Source: Exiguobacterium sp. Helios (lineage in GTDB: Bacteria > Bacillota > Bacilli > Exiguobacteriales > Exiguobacteriaceae). From it: a stretch of 64,000 bases of DNA. Below the pieces are notes generated by a model, which did not search any database, was not told where the DNA came from, and saw nothing but the letters and a program-made list of their open reading frames with translations. The DNA lies in assembly GCF_014524545.1 (NCBI RefSeq), contig NZ_CP053557.1, forward strand, positions 2,381,501-2,445,500. Direction: 5' to 3'. This document shows positions 3,812 through 11,445 of the stretch, one piece after another (the stretch's first letter is position 1; each line of letters begins with the position of its first letter). The translations under genes and the position numbers were made by a program.

Positions 3812-3858
3812 AGCAACAAAGTACAAACCCTCTGCTTTCATCATAAGCAGAGGGTTGT
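3812..3858 (-). terminator. Terminator after the AI-2E-family gene
   Basis: A perfect 12-bp stem (AACCCTCTGCTT at 3826–3837 with AAGCAGAGGGTT at 3845–3856) lies just below the stop at 3866. The following tract is only moderately T-rich on the minus strand. It would end the 3.9–11.3 kb operon before the hemA promoter. Confidence 0.7.
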
Positions 3859-3865
3859 GGATTTC

Positions 3866-5014
3866 TTATTTCGTCGAATCGGTAATGATCCGTGACTCCT
3901 CGATCTGGACATCCAACTTTTGTTGACGCAGACGATAAATCCGGGCAATGTTTTGAACGACGACTTTGGTCACGGCATACGTCGGGACCGCTAAGATGAC
4001 ACCGATGATGCCGCCAATTTTACCGGCAACGAGTAAGACGATGATGATGGTCAACGGGTGGACCTTCAACGTCTTCCCTTGGACGTAAGGTGAAATCAGA
4101 TTCGATTCAATCTGTTGGGCAACGACAATCGTAATGATGGCGTAGAGCGCTTTGATTGGATCATCGATGAATCCGACGATGACTGCAGGAACAGCACCGA
4201 TATAAGGTCCGAGATAAGGAATGATATTCGTGACCGTACAGAACAGCGCCAGCAGCAACGCATATTGAATGTCCGAGAGGAAGAATCCGATCAACGACAT
4301 GAGACCGACACATAACGAAACGATGACTTGACCATTCACATAATGTTTAACCGTCACATGCATGTCATGAAGAATTTTACGTGTTTCCGTTTCATAGCTT
4401 TTCGGTAAAAGTTTGACGACTGAATTCGGAAACTTATAACCGTCGAGTAACATGTAGACCAAAATGAATGGTACAAGCACGATGATCAGCACGGTCGAAG
4501 AAATGACACTGAAAATCGTCCCGACAGAGGTCGACACCGACTTGAACAACGTCCCGATGTAAGATGTCGCTTCATTCGTCCATTTATCAAACAAATCGGT
4601 ATTTTCATGTACCCAGTTGGAAATGAGTCGATTGTTCATCAGCTGATCCCGGAGGTTCAGCGTCTGGTCCCGCAGTTCGACGACCAGATTCGGAATGCTC
4701 GTTACGAAGTCCGAGACTTGCTCGACCAGAATCGGTCCGATGGATGCCACGGCAATCGTGATGACACCGAGAAATCCGAGCAGGACGATTAAAACAGCAA
4801 GACCCCGCTTCTTGACTCGCTTTTGCAGTGCATCAACAATTCCAAGTGTGAAGTAATAAAAAATACCGGCGATAATCAACGGTGGGAAAATCAGGGCTAA
4901 CATCACTTTAATCGGTTGGAATAAAAATGAGATTTTCGTTCCGACCCAGATGACTAAGAAGATCGTCAAAATCCAAAGTAAGGCTTTAAACCATTTGTTT
5001 CGAAGTAAATCCAC
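3866..5014 (-). CDS. AI-2E/PerM-family membrane protein (YtvI/YubA-like)
   Basis: A polytopic membrane protein of 382 residues in the AI-2 exporter/PerM family. It has an N-terminal pair of helices (about 10–60), a long soluble segment with helices (about 90–150), and C-terminal helices. The family signature region IPYLGPYIGAVPAVIVGF is near residue 265. The start is a GTG with a strong site (GTAGGAGG) eight bases upstream. It lies 25 bases after the glycosyltransferase gene, with no terminator between, so it appears to be the last gene of that operon. Family members are proposed transporters of varied substrates. Export of, or pressure relief linked to, the polysaccharide made by the neighbours is only inference. 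Confidence 0.85.
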   Translation of the reverse strand: MDLLRNKWFKALLWILTIFLVIWVGTKISFLFQPIKVMLALIFPPLIIAGIFYYFTLGIVDALQKRVKKRGLAVLIVLLGFLGVITIAVASIGPILVEQVSDFVTSIPNLVVELRDQTLNLRDQLMNNRLISNWVHENTDLFDKWTNEATSYIGTLFKSVSTSVGTIFSVISSTVLIIVLVPFILVYMLLDGYKFPNSVVKLLPKSYETETRKILHDMHVTVKHYVNGQVIVSLCVGLMSLIGFFLSDIQYALLLALFCTVTNIIPYLGPYIGAVPAVIVGFIDDPIKALYAIITIVVAQQIESNLISPYVQGKTLKVHPLTIIIVLLVAGKIGGIIGVILAVPTYAVTKVVVQNIARIYRLRQQKLDVQIEESRIITDSTK

Positions 5015-5039
5015 GAACAGTCCTCCTACGAGTTTACAA

Positions 5040-6488
5040 TCAACTTGTTTTTTCTTTCGCTTCTTCTGTTACGACATCATCCAGTCGTTGTCGTTCCATT
5101 TTACCCCATTGACCGCGTCCCGTCATGAACTGAATTAATCCGCCCAGTTTAAAGAACACGAGGATCGGCCGGTACCAAAACGATTCTGTCAGTGACCACA
5201 GGAACAATCGAATCAATTCCTTGACGTTTTTAAAGCGGTGCATCGTCCATTCTTCAAGCAAGACAGCCCCTGCCGATAATAATGAGCCATACAATAGAGC
5301 CACCGTCAACAGAACGATGCCAAACTCAAAATTTAGCGTTCCGACAAGTAGATTTAATGGAATGATGAAATAACCGATCAGTTCGACGATCGGACCTAAT
5401 AATTCAATCAAAAAGAAGTACAGCATCGAGACACTTCCGACAAAGCCGTAGCGCGGATTTCCAATCATCCGCTTATGCGTCCATAACGTTTCCGCCAGTC
5501 CACGATGCCAACGGCTCCGTTGTGAGCGTAAGACTTCCATCGTATCCGGTGCCTGAGTCCAGCAGACCGGTGACGGGACGTACTCAATTCGTTTGTCGAT
5601 ATCATTTTCTTTCATGTACCGGTGCAGCCGGACAACCAGTTCCATGTCCTCGCCGACAAGTCCTTCTTTGTACCCGCCAGCCTGAACAACGATTGCCTTT
5701 TGAAATAATCCAAAAGCCCCGGAAACGATAAGGAGCATGTTAAAACGGCTTAGCCCAAGACGACCGAACAGGAATGCCCGGAAGTACTCAATCATTTGCA
5801 TCAACACGATCCGTTGTTTTGGTGTCCGAATCTCAACAATTTCACCGCCCTCGATTGTACAGCCGTTGACGAGGAAAATCGATCCGCACGTCGCAATGAC
5901 ATCTTCATCGGACTCAACAATCGGTTTCATGACTTTCAAGAGCGCATCCCGCTCAAGAATTGAATCCGCGTCCAGTGAACAGAAATACGGATAACTGGAA
6001 TAGTCGATTCCGGCATTCAAAGCATCCGCCTTTCCGCCGTTTTCTTTATCGATGACAATCAAACGGGCATCGATTCGGGAACGGTAGACCTGTTTAACCG
6101 GTTGCGATCCAATCAGGATCCGTGGAAACCGCAATTCCTTTTCCAGTTCGTACATCTTAAACAGTTCACTCATTGTCCCGTCACTTGATCCGTCATTGAT
6201 GACAATGACTTCATGTTCCGGATAATCGAGTGCAAGCAACGCCTGAACACTCGTGACAATCGTATACTCTTCATTGTAAGCCGGAACAAGGATACTGACC
6301 GGTCGTGTATAAAGAGAACGCATCAACGGAAGATAAGAACTTTCCTTTCGTCGGAATCGTTGTTTTCGGACCATTTGTGCCGAAATCAGATACAACGAGG
6401 AATAGAAAATGATGACGAGAATCATATAAATCAGGACAGTCCATGATAAAACATCAATGATTTTTTGAATGGTTTCAGATGACAACAT
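5040..6488 (-). CDS. Processive family 2 glycosyltransferase, polysaccharide synthase type
   Basis: A 482-residue membrane enzyme resembling IcaA/PgaC, BcsA and hyaluronan synthases. One N-terminal helix (about 12–36) precedes the cytosolic GT-A domain. Catalytic features are the DG of INDGSSDG (about 99–100), DAD at about 173–175, ED at about 280–281 and Q323-x-x-R-W. The QxxRW motif marks processive synthases. Several C-terminal helices (about 350–455) and a WGKMER tail typical of this group follow. No PilZ domain is visible. The start overlaps the HEAT-repeat gene by 14 bases. The polymer is unknown; a beta-linked hexose or N-acetylhexosamine chain is the usual product of relatives. Confidence 0.88.
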   Translation of the reverse strand: MLSSETIQKIIDVLSWTVLIYMILVIIFYSSLYLISAQMVRKQRFRRKESSYLPLMRSLYTRPVSILVPAYNEEYTIVTSVQALLALDYPEHEVIVINDGSSDGTMSELFKMYELEKELRFPRILIGSQPVKQVYRSRIDARLIVIDKENGGKADALNAGIDYSSYPYFCSLDADSILERDALLKVMKPIVESDEDVIATCGSIFLVNGCTIEGGEIVEIRTPKQRIVLMQMIEYFRAFLFGRLGLSRFNMLLIVSGAFGLFQKAIVVQAGGYKEGLVGEDMELVVRLHRYMKENDIDKRIEYVPSPVCWTQAPDTMEVLRSQRSRWHRGLAETLWTHKRMIGNPRYGFVGSVSMLYFFLIELLGPIVELIGYFIIPLNLLVGTLNFEFGIVLLTVALLYGSLLSAGAVLLEEWTMHRFKNVKELIRLFLWSLTESFWYRPILVFFKLGGLIQFMTGRGQWGKMERQRLDDVVTEEAKEKTS

Positions 6489-7497
6489 GTTGTTTCATCT
6501 CCTTTGCTAGCCGTTCCGTCGCTTTTTGTTTCGCATAGCGGTCAGGATGATCTTTTGCGACAAGCGCCAACTGTTCGAGACCACCACAGGCAAGCAGGGC
6601 ATCAAATGCCGCCGTTCGTACCCACCAGGAACGACTGCCGACAAACGGTAGGATGTAGTCGACAGAATCCTTTGGTGTCACATTTTCTAAAAAGCGCAAA
6701 GCTAACATCTGCTCGACCCAACTCGTTTCGTCTTCCAGATAGGGAGTATAAAGCTGCCAGTCTTCTTCAAGACCAATCCGTGTCAGCGCACGCAACGCCC
6801 GTTTTCGGATTTCCGGATTGACGTCGTTCGTTTTGCTCCGGACCAGCTCTGCATATTTTGTCTCGTCGCGGTCATAAATCAGTTGGAGAATCGCCATTTG
6901 AAAAGACTCTGTCAGCTGATCAAAGTCTTTTATCCATGGCGATAAATCGTGACTTCGCCCGACAGCGAGTACCGCTCCAAAAAAACTGATCTCGTTCTTC
7001 TGTTTTGCTTCCTCGATGGCTAGGCTCGGAGAAATCGAGACCAACGTCCGGATGATGACGTCTTCTTCTTCTTTTGACAGTTGTTTATGCAATTTTTGCT
7101 GAAGAGTGTCAGCGACCGGACTTAACCGGAACTGCGCGATTGCTTCATAAGCATTTAGACGGCGATCTATCCGACGATGCCGGATTTGTTTTTGATAATA
7201 AGACAATAATTTCGTTTCGACATAACGGTAAATTTTTTCCTGATGCGCCTCGGTTGCCGTTAAATTCGTCAAAGCAAACAACTCCAGTTCAACCAAGTCT
7301 TCATTTCCCGGCACGATATCTGGCATGTCTGTTTGTTCACCTGTCGCATAATCGTAGATGTCGTCCCGAAAACGCAGTTGCCATGTCAGCCGGTTATCCT
7401 CTTGCCTAGCGCGTTTACGTTTTTGAATGACCAGATACATGAGAGCAGCCACCTGAAGAATGACGAGGATAAGGATGAAAGTCAGAATCCATCTCAT
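6475..7497 (-). CDS. Membrane-anchored HEAT-repeat protein
   Basis: 340 residues. One N-terminal transmembrane segment (about 4–24) is followed by a basic patch (QKRKRAR), which predicts the rest to be cytosolic. The remainder is helical, with degenerate HEAT-like repeats clearest at the C-terminal half (for example NPEIRKRALRALTRIGL and SWWVRTAAFDALLACGG). HEAT arrays serve as protein-binding scaffolds, so docking of the neighbouring synthase or receiver-like protein at the membrane is plausible. The start overlaps the stop of the receiver-like gene by four bases (ATGA), and its own end overlaps the glycosyltransferase gene. No enzymatic motif is seen. Confidence 0.7.
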   Translation of the reverse strand: MRWILTFILILVILQVAALMYLVIQKRKRARQEDNRLTWQLRFRDDIYDYATGEQTDMPDIVPGNEDLVELELFALTNLTATEAHQEKIYRYVETKLLSYYQKQIRHRRIDRRLNAYEAIAQFRLSPVADTLQQKLHKQLSKEEEDVIIRTLVSISPSLAIEEAKQKNEISFFGAVLAVGRSHDLSPWIKDFDQLTESFQMAILQLIYDRDETKYAELVRSKTNDVNPEIRKRALRALTRIGLEEDWQLYTPYLEDETSWVEQMLALRFLENVTPKDSVDYILPFVGSRSWWVRTAAFDALLACGGLEQLALVAKDHPDRYAKQKATERLAKEMKQHVVI

Positions 7498-8246
7498 TCG
7501 TTCATCCCCTCCAGTTTTCTGAGCCAGGCACGGAATTCTTCAATTTTAAGCGGCAACGTCATAACACCATCAACGCCACGTTCGATGGCGAGGACATGAT
7601 CCCGTTCACGGTTGTACATCGAAATCATGATGGCGTGAAACGGCATCACACTTTCTGTTTTAGCACGTAAGAGCAGTTCAAGACCGTCCGCACGTGGAAG
7701 CGCGGAAGAAAAGACCAACAGATACGGGCGCGTTGCTACATGTTCTTCCAAAAATGATTCTGTCCGTTCGTACACGGACAGATTCTCAAAACGGTTGGTC
7801 AGTTCCCGCTCCAAAAGACGCTGCAAATGCGGATCTTCGGTTACGATCACAGCGTCAACAATCCGCTGAACCCGTTTGTACCGGCTGATCCGATCGAGCA
7901 ATATGTCTTTGGTGATGGTCGCCGGTATCACTTCCCGCGCATTATCAAGCAGGTAAAGGGACACGTCCTCTTGATTCGGATTGAGGTAAAGAACCGGAAC
8001 CCGTTCCTCTTCAACAGCTTTGCTCGCGAGGACGACATCTGCATAAGAGATGTCTGTCCGAACACAATGTCCCTGTTCAATTAAAGCATTGACCGTTTCC
8101 GGCATTAAACCGACGGTATGAATAAAGACGACACCAGCAGTCGATTGTTCCACTTCTTCTTCTGACGCAACACGCGCAGAACTCGTTTCTTCGTCGACCG
8201 GTGTAATCGATGCATTAATCAGTTTCCACATGTCTTCCCGACGCAT
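7494..8246 (-). CDS. Response-regulator-like protein with receiver-type domain, no output domain
   Basis: 250 residues without signal or membrane segment. The second half (about 125–250) has the beta-alpha rhythm of a receiver domain. It includes DAVIVTEDPHLQRLLERELT at its start, YLLVFSSALPRADGLELL in the phospho-acceptor region, and IERGVDGVMTLPLKIEEFRAWL at its end. The usual phospho-accepting Asp is replaced by serine/alanine (VFSSALP), while the switch-region and Lys-Pro equivalents are partly kept (TLPLK). It is probably a pseudo-receiver acting by protein contact. The first half also looks like a degenerate receiver fold (VVFIHTVGLMPETVNALI). The ATG directly follows the stop of the hydrolase gene. 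Confidence 0.65.
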   Translation of the reverse strand: MRREDMWKLINASITPVDEETSSARVASEEEVEQSTAGVVFIHTVGLMPETVNALIEQGHCVRTDISYADVVLASKAVEEERVPVLYLNPNQEDVSLYLLDNAREVIPATITKDILLDRISRYKRVQRIVDAVIVTEDPHLQRLLERELTNRFENLSVYERTESFLEEHVATRPYLLVFSSALPRADGLELLLRAKTESVMPFHAIMISMYNRERDHVLAIERGVDGVMTLPLKIEEFRAWLRKLEGMNE

Positions 8247-11200
8247 TTATTTCACTCCCTTTTTGAATGCTTTCCGCATCGATTGATAGACGGGTTTTAA
8301 TTCTTCACGTTGTTGCGGATTCGTCCACTCTGACCAATTGTAGAATCCTCGGTCAGATTCCGGAATCCGAGTTGTTCCGATCTGGCCGGTCACTTCAATC
8401 CCTTCCGTGATCATCTTCGCCTCAAGCCCATCTTTCCAAAAATCTCCGATGATTTCATGTTTGCTTGGGTCCCGCATATTTAATAACATCCACGGGATCC
8501 GAAGTTCGATTTGCTTTTGCTTGATGTCAGAGATATCGGTCAAAATACTTTCCGGCGGTCCTTCATGCAGAATACCAGTGTCCCACTTCACGGCCGGTTT
8601 GATGATTTTTTTAGTGACCGGATCCCGTCTGGCGTAATCGAGCATTTGGTAGATTGGGTTAAAGTTTCCACTATTTTGCTTATCTGACGGTGGTTTGACC
8701 ATCTCAAACGATTTTTTCAAGCCGTAATGGTAGCGGAAGATGTCATACCGTTCATCGACATCCAAGCGTGCTTGATTGCCGATTGTCAAACGATATTCTG
8801 CTCCTTCGTCCAATTTTAACGGTCCGACTTGCAGATTGCCGTCATTCGGCTTCGTCGAAAAAGCGAGTGTCGTCGGTTCGACTTTTTTCCGGTCGATCCG
8901 CACATACAGATAGGCCTCATCCGATGTCATGTAAATGGCTTGACCGTCCGTTTCTGCTACCGGTGCATATCCTCTCCAGTCATCCATCTTGCCGTCAATC
9001 GTAATGTCGGCTCTTAAGAAACCGAGCATTCCGAAATGCTGCTCGCTCGTTTGGACATTTGACCAGCGCGGACGTGTGTTGGCGTCGTCATAGTCCATCG
9101 TATTCCACGTTCGTTTGAACCATTCGTCCTGCCAGATAAAGACCAGTCCTCCGGCCATCTTCGTTTCGACGATGTCTTGATATAACTTGGCCACGAGTTT
9201 GCCTTGATTTTCTTCACTGACATGACCTTGATCAAATCCATTCGGACCCAGATGGGTTTTCCCACGCGAACTCGGAATGCCGAATTCGGAAACGAGTAAC
9301 GGCATATCATGATAGTCTTTCATCCGCTTCAGATAACGGCTGTACGACTCTGATCCGGTATCCCCTTTACGTCCAAACTCTTCTTTGATGAAGGAAGGAT
9401 AGTATGGGTAAATATGATACGAGGCGAAGACGCCGCCTGCAAAGTCTTTTGTGGCCTGGATATGGTTGAAATCAATCGATACCAAGTCCTGTTCTTCCTC
9501 CACTTCCTTCGGATGCGCAAGCGGATCCGTTGTCGGCCAGTTCGTCGCTGCGATCGGCCGGGTCGTTTTGTAGGTATCGAGCTCATGCTGTGTCGCACTG
9601 TCCATCCGCCCGGCTAACCACGACTCGAACGGAGATGCCTCTTTTGTCGTCGTCACATATTTCCCGTCGTATCGAAGTCCTTTATTCTTTTTGTTTGTTC
9701 CGATTACGGCATCCGGTAACCATTCAATCCCGAACACAAATGCCGAGACGTATTGCGAAACATCTGACGTATAGGTTCCGGAAGCATGACCGACAACTTC
9801 TTTGACGACAGCATTGCCGTGAACCACGTCGACCATCCGCTTCGCTTCCGTATCCGTCATCTTCAAAAATTTCGGTTCGAAGGCATTTTTTAATTCCTCG
9901 AACGGTTTTTCTTCGACCCACATGCCTTGCATTAAATAAATCGGTGTTTTCGCCGTTTCATTGTAAGCTTTTAACGCATCATAAAAAGCGGGAGGATGGA
10001 GGGTATAAATCCGGATGGTATTGACGCCCATCTCGCCCATCTGCTTCAGCCACCGGTCGTATTCATTGCGGCTGATGGCGTGTTCTCCCGGGAAAGCGCC
10101 GGGACGTCCTAGCCCAACATTCACACCTTTAACAAAGTATGGTTTCCATTTTCCGTCTTGATACATTTCAAGTGTATCTTGACCAGAACGTGCCCGTGTA
10201 CGGACCGTCTGATTGTTAACTTTCGTTTGTGCCAACGGTTTAACTTGCGCCGACTGCTGTTTTACGACTTTCGTTTCTTTCAAGATACGACTGATCGTCG
10301 GTGCATAGACTTTCCAAAAGAATGCAGTCTCGCTGTCTGCACTATCCAAAATGAATTGCTTACGGAACCACTCGAGACCGGCATAACGATAGTAGCGCGG
10401 AATATCGGCCACATCTGTGAAGTCACCTGCAAAATAATGACCGCTTCCCTGTTTGACATATGCGGGGAATTCAAGTGGCAATTGCCGTTCACGCAACATG
10501 GCTTGTGTTTTCTTTGACGGATTCCAAGAGAAATGCGCCTGTTGTTCGCCTCCGTCAAGCTCCAACACTTCAAACCAGTAGTTGTAGCGGACTTCATCCT
10601 TCGCCTGTCCCTGGTTTTTATCCCATGTGTATAAAAGTGGCGTCTCATCATTGACGAAAAAGACTTCTTCCGTTGAGTCGTTGATGAAGACATAACCAGG
10701 TCCCGATAATTTAAATGCTTTATCTTTTGCCTGAAGCTTCAATTTATCAATGACGGTCTGATCGAGTCCCTGTAATTTTGTTAAGTCCGGGAAAAAGCGT
10801 CCGATCCATCCTGTCCATGCCGTACCAAACAATTGCCGAAACGCATTGGAGCGATCGGATGGTGTCGGGCTGGCTGCTGTATTAAACTCTGCGACGACTG
10901 TCTTTCCTTTTGAAATCGCATCTGTTGCCAATGCCACATCCTCAGCCGTCAGTCCGCCACGATGTTGTTCCTTACCATCGACGGTATAGGATTTCCCGTA
11001 CGTGTCCGTAAACAACAGGACATCCGCCTTTGATGCTTGTTTGAGCATCGTTTCGCCTTGCGTCCCGTCATAACGGTTTACGTAATCCGTGTATGTATAG
11101 TTCTTTCCCTCATTCTTCGTGATTTTCAAATGATTCAATAACCAGGTCGTTCCTGCATGCTCCCGTTGTTGTTTTCCTACCGTGTAATCAAACAGGATTA

Positions 11201-11294
11201 CGTTTAATGTCCGTTCCTTTTGAATGAACCAAATCAATAATGGTGTCAAAATCAAAAGGAGAATTACTGCTGCGATCCATTTATATCGCTTCAT
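8247..11294 (-). CDS. Membrane-anchored multidomain glycoside-hydrolase-like protein with C-terminal carbohydrate-binding-type domain
   Basis: 1015 residues, first gene of the operon. An N-terminal anchor (about 7–24) would place the rest outside the cell. Residues 30–320 form an alpha/beta domain with a glutamine-amidotransferase/ThuA-like look (KADVLLFTDTYGKSYTV). Residues 380–725 look like a clan-A (beta/alpha)8 hydrolase. Candidate acid/base is E524 in FGIEWLP and candidate nucleophile is E670 in LLVSEFG. Residues about 764–990 resemble a CBM9/DOMON-type sandwich (ITIDGKMDDWRGY). The open frame extends 96 residues upstream, but the ATG at 11294 starts the signal-anchor and has a GGAAAGGGA site. 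The Asn usually before the acid/base Glu is absent. Role inferred: trimming or binding the polymer made by the synthase. Confidence 0.75.
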   Translation of the reverse strand: MKRYKWIAAVILLLILTPLLIWFIQKERTLNVILFDYTVGKQQREHAGTTWLLNHLKITKNEGKNYTYTDYVNRYDGTQGETMLKQASKADVLLFTDTYGKSYTVDGKEQHRGGLTAEDVALATDAISKGKTVVAEFNTAASPTPSDRSNAFRQLFGTAWTGWIGRFFPDLTKLQGLDQTVIDKLKLQAKDKAFKLSGPGYVFINDSTEEVFFVNDETPLLYTWDKNQGQAKDEVRYNYWFEVLELDGGEQQAHFSWNPSKKTQAMLRERQLPLEFPAYVKQGSGHYFAGDFTDVADIPRYYRYAGLEWFRKQFILDSADSETAFFWKVYAPTISRILKETKVVKQQSAQVKPLAQTKVNNQTVRTRARSGQDTLEMYQDGKWKPYFVKGVNVGLGRPGAFPGEHAISRNEYDRWLKQMGEMGVNTIRIYTLHPPAFYDALKAYNETAKTPIYLMQGMWVEEKPFEELKNAFEPKFLKMTDTEAKRMVDVVHGNAVVKEVVGHASGTYTSDVSQYVSAFVFGIEWLPDAVIGTNKKNKGLRYDGKYVTTTKEASPFESWLAGRMDSATQHELDTYKTTRPIAATNWPTTDPLAHPKEVEEEQDLVSIDFNHIQATKDFAGGVFASYHIYPYYPSFIKEEFGRKGDTGSESYSRYLKRMKDYHDMPLLVSEFGIPSSRGKTHLGPNGFDQGHVSEENQGKLVAKLYQDIVETKMAGGLVFIWQDEWFKRTWNTMDYDDANTRPRWSNVQTSEQHFGMLGFLRADITIDGKMDDWRGYAPVAETDGQAIYMTSDEAYLYVRIDRKKVEPTTLAFSTKPNDGNLQVGPLKLDEGAEYRLTIGNQARLDVDERYDIFRYHYGLKKSFEMVKPPSDKQNSGNFNPIYQMLDYARRDPVTKKIIKPAVKWDTGILHEGPPESILTDISDIKQKQIELRIPWMLLNMRDPSKHEIIGDFWKDGLEAKMITEGIEVTGQIGTTRIPESDRGFYNWSEWTNPQQREELKPVYQSMRKAFKKGVK

Positions 11295-11395
11295 CTTTAC
11301 ACGTCCCTTTCCGTCCCCTTTGTTTTTTCTATTGTAACGTGAAAACAATCTATCGCATATATGGGAACTGCTTATTTCTGAAAGGTATATTTTGG

Positions 11396-11432
11396 ATAAA
11401 AAAAAGAAACGACTACCGTTAGGCAGTCGCTT
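11396..11432 (-). terminator. Terminator after ysxC
   Basis: On the minus strand the stem CGACTGCC–TAAC–GGTAGTCG is followed by TTTCTTTTTTTT. It separates the lon–ysxC unit from the promoter region (11295–11395) of the polysaccharide operon. Confidence 0.88.
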
Positions 11433-11445
11433 CGACTCATTTGAA

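Follow-up and report, generated by a model that had tools for sequence, protein, structure and literature searches.

Which of the genes packed together at one locus of Exiguobacterium sp. Helios belong to one system, and what would this system make? The locus lies in a stretch of 64,000 nucleotides of contig NZ_CP053557.1, hereafter the window, where five open reading frames (ORFs), all on the minus strand and tightly packed, encode a membrane-anchored hydrolase, a receiver-like (REC-like) protein, a HEAT-repeat protein, a glycosyltransferase of family 2 (GT2) and an AI-2E family permease. Their coordinates match those of an earlier note on this DNA, which had read all five genes as one polysaccharide operon. 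Its observation was sound and its interpretation half right. Only four of the genes (REC-like, HEAT, GT2 and hydrolase) make up the actual unit, a cassette that is probably a new variant among synthase-dependent polysaccharide systems, and the AI-2E gene is a resident neighbour rather than a component. We consider it likely that the cassette is a self-contained synthase-dependent surface-polysaccharide system with a membrane HEAT protein as co-subunit.

A four-gene cassette upstream of a resident AI-2E gene

The cassette occupies the chromosomal slot between engB and hemA. Across 19 Exiguobacterium genomes this slot holds the cassette in 14, a poly-N-acetylglucosamine (PNAG, ica/pga) operon in one and neither in four; the hydrolase and the GT2 occur in the same 14 genomes, with one copy each. 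In the four cassette-free genomes the slot contains AI-2E alone, 92-94% identical and preceded by an intergenic region of 152-156 bp with its own promoter-like sequence. Four genomes of the sister genus show the same arrangement of AI-2E between engB and hemA, at 54-57% identity. In cassette-bearing genomes, the region upstream of AI-2E has shrunk to a short gap after the GT2 gene. Because AI-2E keeps the same position in cassette-free Exiguobacterium and in the sister genus, it is a bystander, and the four other genes therefore came or went upstream of it.

The earlier note had asked whether the five genes co-occur and had cast AI-2E as a helper in transport. The REC-like, HEAT, GT2 and hydrolase genes do travel together; AI-2E is the only one that does not belong, and its genomic context rejects the role proposed for it. 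Cooperation of all five genes, in which AI-2E would export the polymer or its precursor, is highly improbable: AI-2E is co-linear with the cassette in cassette-bearing genomes and follows the GT2 gene with no terminator between them, but it was beside HEAT-GT2 in none of the loci examined outside Exiguobacterium, and processive GT2 synthases push out their own product, as is established for BcsA and hyaluronan synthase (HAS). AI-2E may now be transcribed by read-through from the cassette promoter.

Presence of the cassette is patchy even among near-identical strains in a tree built from five neighbouring proteins, and repeated loss or transfer must therefore have taken place. The PNAG operon, of ica/pga type and complete, was found in G006, the deepest-branching Exiguobacterium sampled, in the engB to AI-2E slot (locus L180, 6658-9286, minus strand). 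Its synthase and PgaD scored above the family cut-offs (PgaC/IcaA 536.8 bits, cut-off 422.3; PgaD 33.1, cut-off 31.45) and its IcaB-like deacetylase below (210 bits, cut-off 248); no PgaC/IcaA synthase of this type was found in the other 18 Exiguobacterium genomes searched. The alternation of PNAG system, HEAT-GT2 cassette and neither at one slot is context evidence that the cassette does a comparable job.

The HEAT protein accompanies the synthase across phyla

The GT2 of the window has the D, DxD, (G)ED and Q(Q/R)xRW motifs and the transmembrane (TM) helices of processive synthases, and no variation was seen at D99, D173/D175, GED 279-281 and QRxRW 323-327 among 26 homologs. A genome scan with a GT2 profile gave at least 571 relatives. 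From these we took the 80 best, selected solely by GT2 similarity, and scanned their flanks in all frames with purpose-built profiles. In 79 loci a HEAT ORF lay directly upstream of the GT2 and in the same orientation (the remaining one of the 80 starts at a contig edge); a receiver lay just upstream of HEAT in 58. The hosts belong to Bacillaceae, Planococcaceae, Paenibacillaceae, Clostridium, Solirubrobacter, Acidobacteriota, Bacteroidota, Elusimicrobia, Neomarinimicrobiota, Proteobacteria and Trueperaceae and include two archaeal metagenome-assembled genomes (MAGs); many of the hosts outside Bacillota are MAGs. Public annotation of five complete plasmids agrees with the pairing, the order being response regulator, YaiO barrel, HEAT, GT2 in Mesorhizobium, TPR, HEAT, GT in Deinococcus, response regulator, HEAT, GT2 in Haloarcula and HEAT, GT in Bacteroides and Planococcus. 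An N-terminal TM helix was present in all 25 HEAT proteins aligned. The idea that REC-like and HEAT proteins form a membrane-docked regulatory module, put forward from the window alone, is strengthened by this conservation of REC-HEAT-GT2 far beyond the genus. Two of the loci have peculiarities. A frame change in Paenibacillus sp. V4I3 (L138, 9995-11411) splits the GT2 into ORFs of 97 and 381 residues, by sequencing error or as a pseudogene, and on a Bacteroides finegoldii plasmid (L188) the HEAT-GT pair adjoins genes for a chondroitinase-family polysaccharide lyase and a DUF4838 protein.

The genes that accompany the pair in other lineages suit a polysaccharide system. A TPR/YaiO-like outer-membrane barrel is encoded in 12 of the 80 loci, all of diderm type, and scored above the cut-off of NCBIfam TIGR04390 in those tested. 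TPR plus barrel is also the layout of the PgaA and BcsC exporters. The TPR/YaiO barrel proteins of the diderm loci L136, L146, L149, L153, L155, L161 and L185 suggest that barrels of the YaiO family are polysaccharide exporters. Clusters of Paenibacillus type (L061, L062, L063, L067, L069) run hydrolase-HEAT-GT2-receiver and continue with a UDP-glucose dehydrogenase, to which some add GlmS and a nucleotidyl transferase. In that lineage these enzymes point to a polymer of uronic acids or amino sugars and suggest a hyaluronan-like or uronic product, which need not hold for Exiguobacterium. On a Planococcus maritimus plasmid (L190, 1-7401), HEAT-GT2 adjoins genes for a polyphosphate polymerase, a DUF4956 protein and CotH, and pel operons of Gram-positive bacteria are reported to have all three as accessory genes (PMC7112168). 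The plasmid also has a Qat defence gene close by.

A GT2 role in glycolipid synthesis or wall-polymer decoration, rather than in the production of a free polysaccharide, would also be compatible with the diversity of GT2 enzymes and with the presence of the HEAT-GT2 pair in archaeal hosts, which have other envelopes. We consider this unlikely, since the Q(R)xRW motif and the multi-TM layout are those of processive synthases, the TPR and beta-barrel partners of diderms suit polymer export, and the cassette swaps with a PNAG operon at one slot. In the favoured reading, that of a free polysaccharide, the GT2 would polymerise a nucleotide sugar and extrude the chain through its own membrane channel, and the membrane-anchored HEAT protein would be its dedicated partner, docking the receiver-family protein on the synthase and gating or stabilising it.

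The cassette differs from known polysaccharide systems

The GT2 was compared with curated synthase models. Its best NCBIfam synthase match was the PgaC_IcaA equivalog, at 128.5 bits against a cut-off of 422.3, and neither PgaD/IcaD nor a deacetylase (IcaB/PgaB) was found among the five ORFs or the flanking housekeeping genes. The CelA model of cellulose (bcs) systems gave 44.8 bits against a cut-off of 699.1, and the operon contains no PilZ or BcsB. The Pel synthase PelF is a GT4 enzyme; the cassette synthase is a GT2 and no PelG-like gene accompanies it. PNAG, cellulose and Pel identities were ruled out by these sub-cut-off scores and missing parts. Motifs, cut-offs and absences all agree with the earlier statement that this processive GT2 operon fits none of the ica, pga, bcs, pel and alg layouts, and no PilZ, BcsB, deacetylase or IcaC-like gene adjoins the operon in the window, as had also been noted. 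The cassette could still be a divergent ica/pga system with PNAG as its product, a reading that draws on the closest curated model and on the PNAG operon in the same slot of a relative; the low score, the lack of PgaD/IcaD and deacetylase, and an identity of 31% between the GT2 and the true PgaC of that relative make it quite unlikely.

Cellulose synthase BcsA/BcsB and hyaluronan synthase share the processive GT2 motifs with the cassette, and has operons resemble the Paenibacillus-type clusters in carrying UDP-glucose dehydrogenase; the cassette has no PilZ or BcsB and has a HEAT partner instead. We found no published description of a HEAT-GT2 system in the open-licence literature on HEAT, GGDEF, glycosyltransferase, YaiO or Exiguobacterium, and a large operon survey (PMC7112194) does not mention HEAT or YaiO.

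A proposed path from cyclase to pseudo-receiver

The REC-like protein consists of an N-terminal part of 126 residues and a C-terminal receiver fold predicted with high confidence (predicted local distance difference test, pLDDT, > 90). The acceptor Asp had been reported missing, and we found Ser or Thr in its place in all nine Exiguobacterium homologs examined (Ser in the window protein). The conserved receiver Lys is Leu in these homologs, and the Arg of the I-site, which binds cyclic di-GMP (c-di-GMP), is missing in all nine, the window protein being devoid of an RxxD I-site. Absence of c-di-GMP signalling was ruled out as the cause of I-site loss, as each of the 19 Exiguobacterium genomes has 19-35 GGDEF domains as well as 1-2 PilZ.

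In many Bacillaceae, the receiver in this slot is the last domain of an Hpt-REC-GGDEF-REC protein, and this domain is the counterpart of the Exiguobacterium pseudo-receiver. After the hydrolase, these clusters often have a hybrid histidine kinase as well as a single-domain receiver. Among REC-slot proteins with an alignable GGDEF region, the GG(D/E)EF motif is kept in 21 and lost in 20. In the 20 degenerate proteins the best-kept of 39 conserved columns are those of the I-site Arg (80%) and Asp (90%), whereas the GGDEF positions G, G, E and E are retained at 5, 30, 10 and 10%; RxxD is present in 15 of them. Retention of the I-site while GGDEF decays is the signature of a cyclase turned c-di-GMP receptor. 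Shorter proteins (about 270-340 residues), mainly from Planococcaceae, still match a GGDEF profile (hhalign 98.2%, E 4e-14).

Similar receptors occur in two described operons. PelD of Bacillus cereus (pelDEADAFG operon) is an experimentally demonstrated c-di-GMP receptor with a degenerate GGDEF domain and RxxD kept, as in the cassette relatives; streptococcal PelD lacks the GGDEF domain, a parallel to the decay in Exiguobacterium, and CotH, polyphosphate polymerase and DUF4956 genes are common to Pel and the Planococcus relative (PMC7112168). The cassette differs from Pel by its GT2 synthase, by a HEAT protein in place of PelE/PelG and by the lack of a PelA deacetylase, and REC domains flank the GGDEF domain in its relatives. 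The second is the putative exopolysaccharide operon ydaJKLMN of B. subtilis, in which YdaM is a GT2 synthase. YdaK has been demonstrated experimentally to be a c-di-GMP receptor with a degenerate GGDEF domain and an intact I-site, but it is membrane-bound and has no REC domain, a HEAT protein is not reported and the other accessory genes differ (PMC7064775).

With acceptor Asp, Lys and I-site Arg all gone and the fastest evolution of the four genes, the Exiguobacterium pseudo-receiver might be a functionless, dying remnant. We regard this as very unlikely: the gene is intact in every cassette-bearing locus examined and overlaps the HEAT start, its nonsynonymous divergence (dN) is well under the near-saturated synonymous divergence (dS) in both halves, and 43 positions of its N-terminal half are invariant among six homologs. 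A structural role is the simplest reading for this protein.

A membrane-tethered hydrolase

The earlier description of the hydrolase as a membrane-anchored GATase-like/(beta/alpha)8/CBM9-like protein stood in part. In the predicted model (pLDDT 81.8), a single N-terminal TM helix is followed by an N-domain, the TIM barrel and, at the C-terminus, a beta-sandwich; the Pfam CBM9 model matched 0 of 31 homologs. No Pfam family at all was matched in 30 of the 31, none of the 31 had a Pfam hit over the cut-off, and no direct sequence match was found in the PDB. E524 (putative acid/base) and E670 (putative nucleophile) are invariant in the 31 homologs and lie in the model at the C-terminal ends of beta-4 and beta-7, the arrangement of clan GH-A. 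The structure search covered mainly the barrel, whose closest PDB fold was GH157 (Z 29.3, root-mean-square deviation 2.5 A, 314 residues aligned, 17% identity), followed by GH2 beta-glucuronidases at about Z 26. The likeness to the GH157 endo-beta-1,3-glucanases (LaGH157) extends to the two Glu positions; besides the low identity, the cassette hydrolase differs by its extra N-domain, TM anchor and C-terminal beta-sandwich and by belonging to no Pfam sequence family. The enzyme is probably active, as a retaining beta-glycosidase or transglycosidase.

The hydrolase was found in 80 of 300 genomes of the class and in 29 of 118 genera. At seven loci (L091, L093, L124, L129, L130, L141, L074) the N-domain forms a separate protein of 355-435 residues right after the GT2, without the TIM barrel. 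An uncharacterised gene is often next, encoding about 565 residues in L074, L093 and L130. Since the N-domain occurs alone beside the GT2 in several loci, the hydrolase part is optional.

A proposed mechanism

The observations comprise gene content and its conservation, motifs kept or lost, the swapping at one slot and fold matches; from them we infer a polysaccharide product, a role for the HEAT protein and a substrate for the hydrolase. The ancestral form, as in Bacillaceae, would have a docked Hpt-REC-GGDEF-REC regulator receiving input from the hybrid kinase. Several lineages would then have lost GGDEF catalysis and kept the c-di-GMP-binding I-site, and in Exiguobacterium the further loss of the I-site Arg and of the phospho-acceptor may have left a phosphorylation-independent scaffold. 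Outside the cell, the membrane-tethered hydrolase would trim, release or remodel the polymer.

The assignment of the cassette to surface polysaccharide is supported by the invariant GT2 motifs, the HEAT-GT2 conservation, the PNAG slot swap and the diderm TPR/YaiO barrels, and also by the UDP-glucose dehydrogenase clusters, the pel-type accessory genes of Planococcus, the Hpt-REC-GGDEF-REC regulator with its hybrid kinase, the I-site retention and purifying selection. Two points weigh against it. Of the 80 loci, 22 lack REC or have it at another place, and REC is therefore not universal. The N-terminal half of the Exiguobacterium REC-like protein is predicted with low confidence (pLDDT < 50) and matches GGDEF profiles no better than a HEAT control does (hhalign E about 0.5). 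A GGDEF remnant had been proposed in this half from MAFFT alignments; it was unproven after profile comparison and structure prediction, and because of the control this label is a guess.

There is about an even chance that HEAT-GT2 represents an undescribed class of synthase-dependent polysaccharide systems common to bacteria and archaea, in which HEAT is an obligate co-subunit and a docking platform for receiver/c-di-GMP regulators that passed from diguanylate cyclase to c-di-GMP receptor to pseudo-receiver scaffold. If so, the universal partner of a large synthase family (the relatives counted above come from one species-genome scan) has gone unrecognised, the family is controlled by a common logic, and surface polymers of many Bacillaceae, Planococcaceae and Paenibacillaceae without ica, bcs or pel genes would be accounted for. 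The natural series from active GGDEF to I-site only to neither would then test the passage from c-di-GMP enzyme to receptor to scaffold on one synthase, and the uncharacterised hydrolase could serve as a tool against such biofilms.

Layout of the locus

Positions of the genes and signals are given in Table 1.

Table 1. Genes, protein domains and candidate signals of the cassette locus (window positions)
Feature	Position	Strand	Remarks
Membrane-anchored hydrolase gene	8247-11294	-	ATG at 11294
Hydrolase domains			TM helix, residues 3-24; N-domain, about 30-345; clan-A-like TIM barrel, about 355-760; C-terminal beta-sandwich, about 775-1015
Pseudo-receiver (REC-like) gene	7494-8246	-	C-terminal receiver fold, acceptor Asp replaced by Ser
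HEAT-repeat protein gene	6475-7497	-	One N-terminal TM helix (residues 6-24)
Processive GT2 polysaccharide synthase gene	5040-6488	-	Membrane-embedded
AI-2E family permease gene	3866-5014	-	Downstream, co-linear resident; outside the system
Putative promoter -10 region, GTTACAAT	11331-11338	-	5' of the hydrolase gene; kept in 9 of 9 cassette-bearing Exiguobacterium sequences compared
Terminator-like hairpin, engB/cassette interval	11406-11433	-	Strong; similar hairpin after engB in all compared genomes
Terminator-like hairpin after AI-2E	3826-3856	-	Strong

The tight coupling of the genes described earlier was confirmed: the hydrolase and REC-like genes are adjacent, the REC-like and HEAT genes share an ATGA overlap (7494-7497), HEAT and GT2 overlap by 14 bases (6475-6488) and 25 bases separate GT2 from AI-2E. 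Weaker terminator-like matches inside the genes number 14, near the 9.7 expected from shuffles. Family profiles matched AI-2E (PF01594, 1.6e-74; 251.5 bits against a cut-off of 34.3), GT2 (PF00535, 1.3e-21) and HEAT (HEAT_2, 1.6e-10), and the Response_reg match of the REC-like protein (8.6e-7) fell slightly under its cut-off. All four cassette genes are under purifying selection, with dS near saturation.

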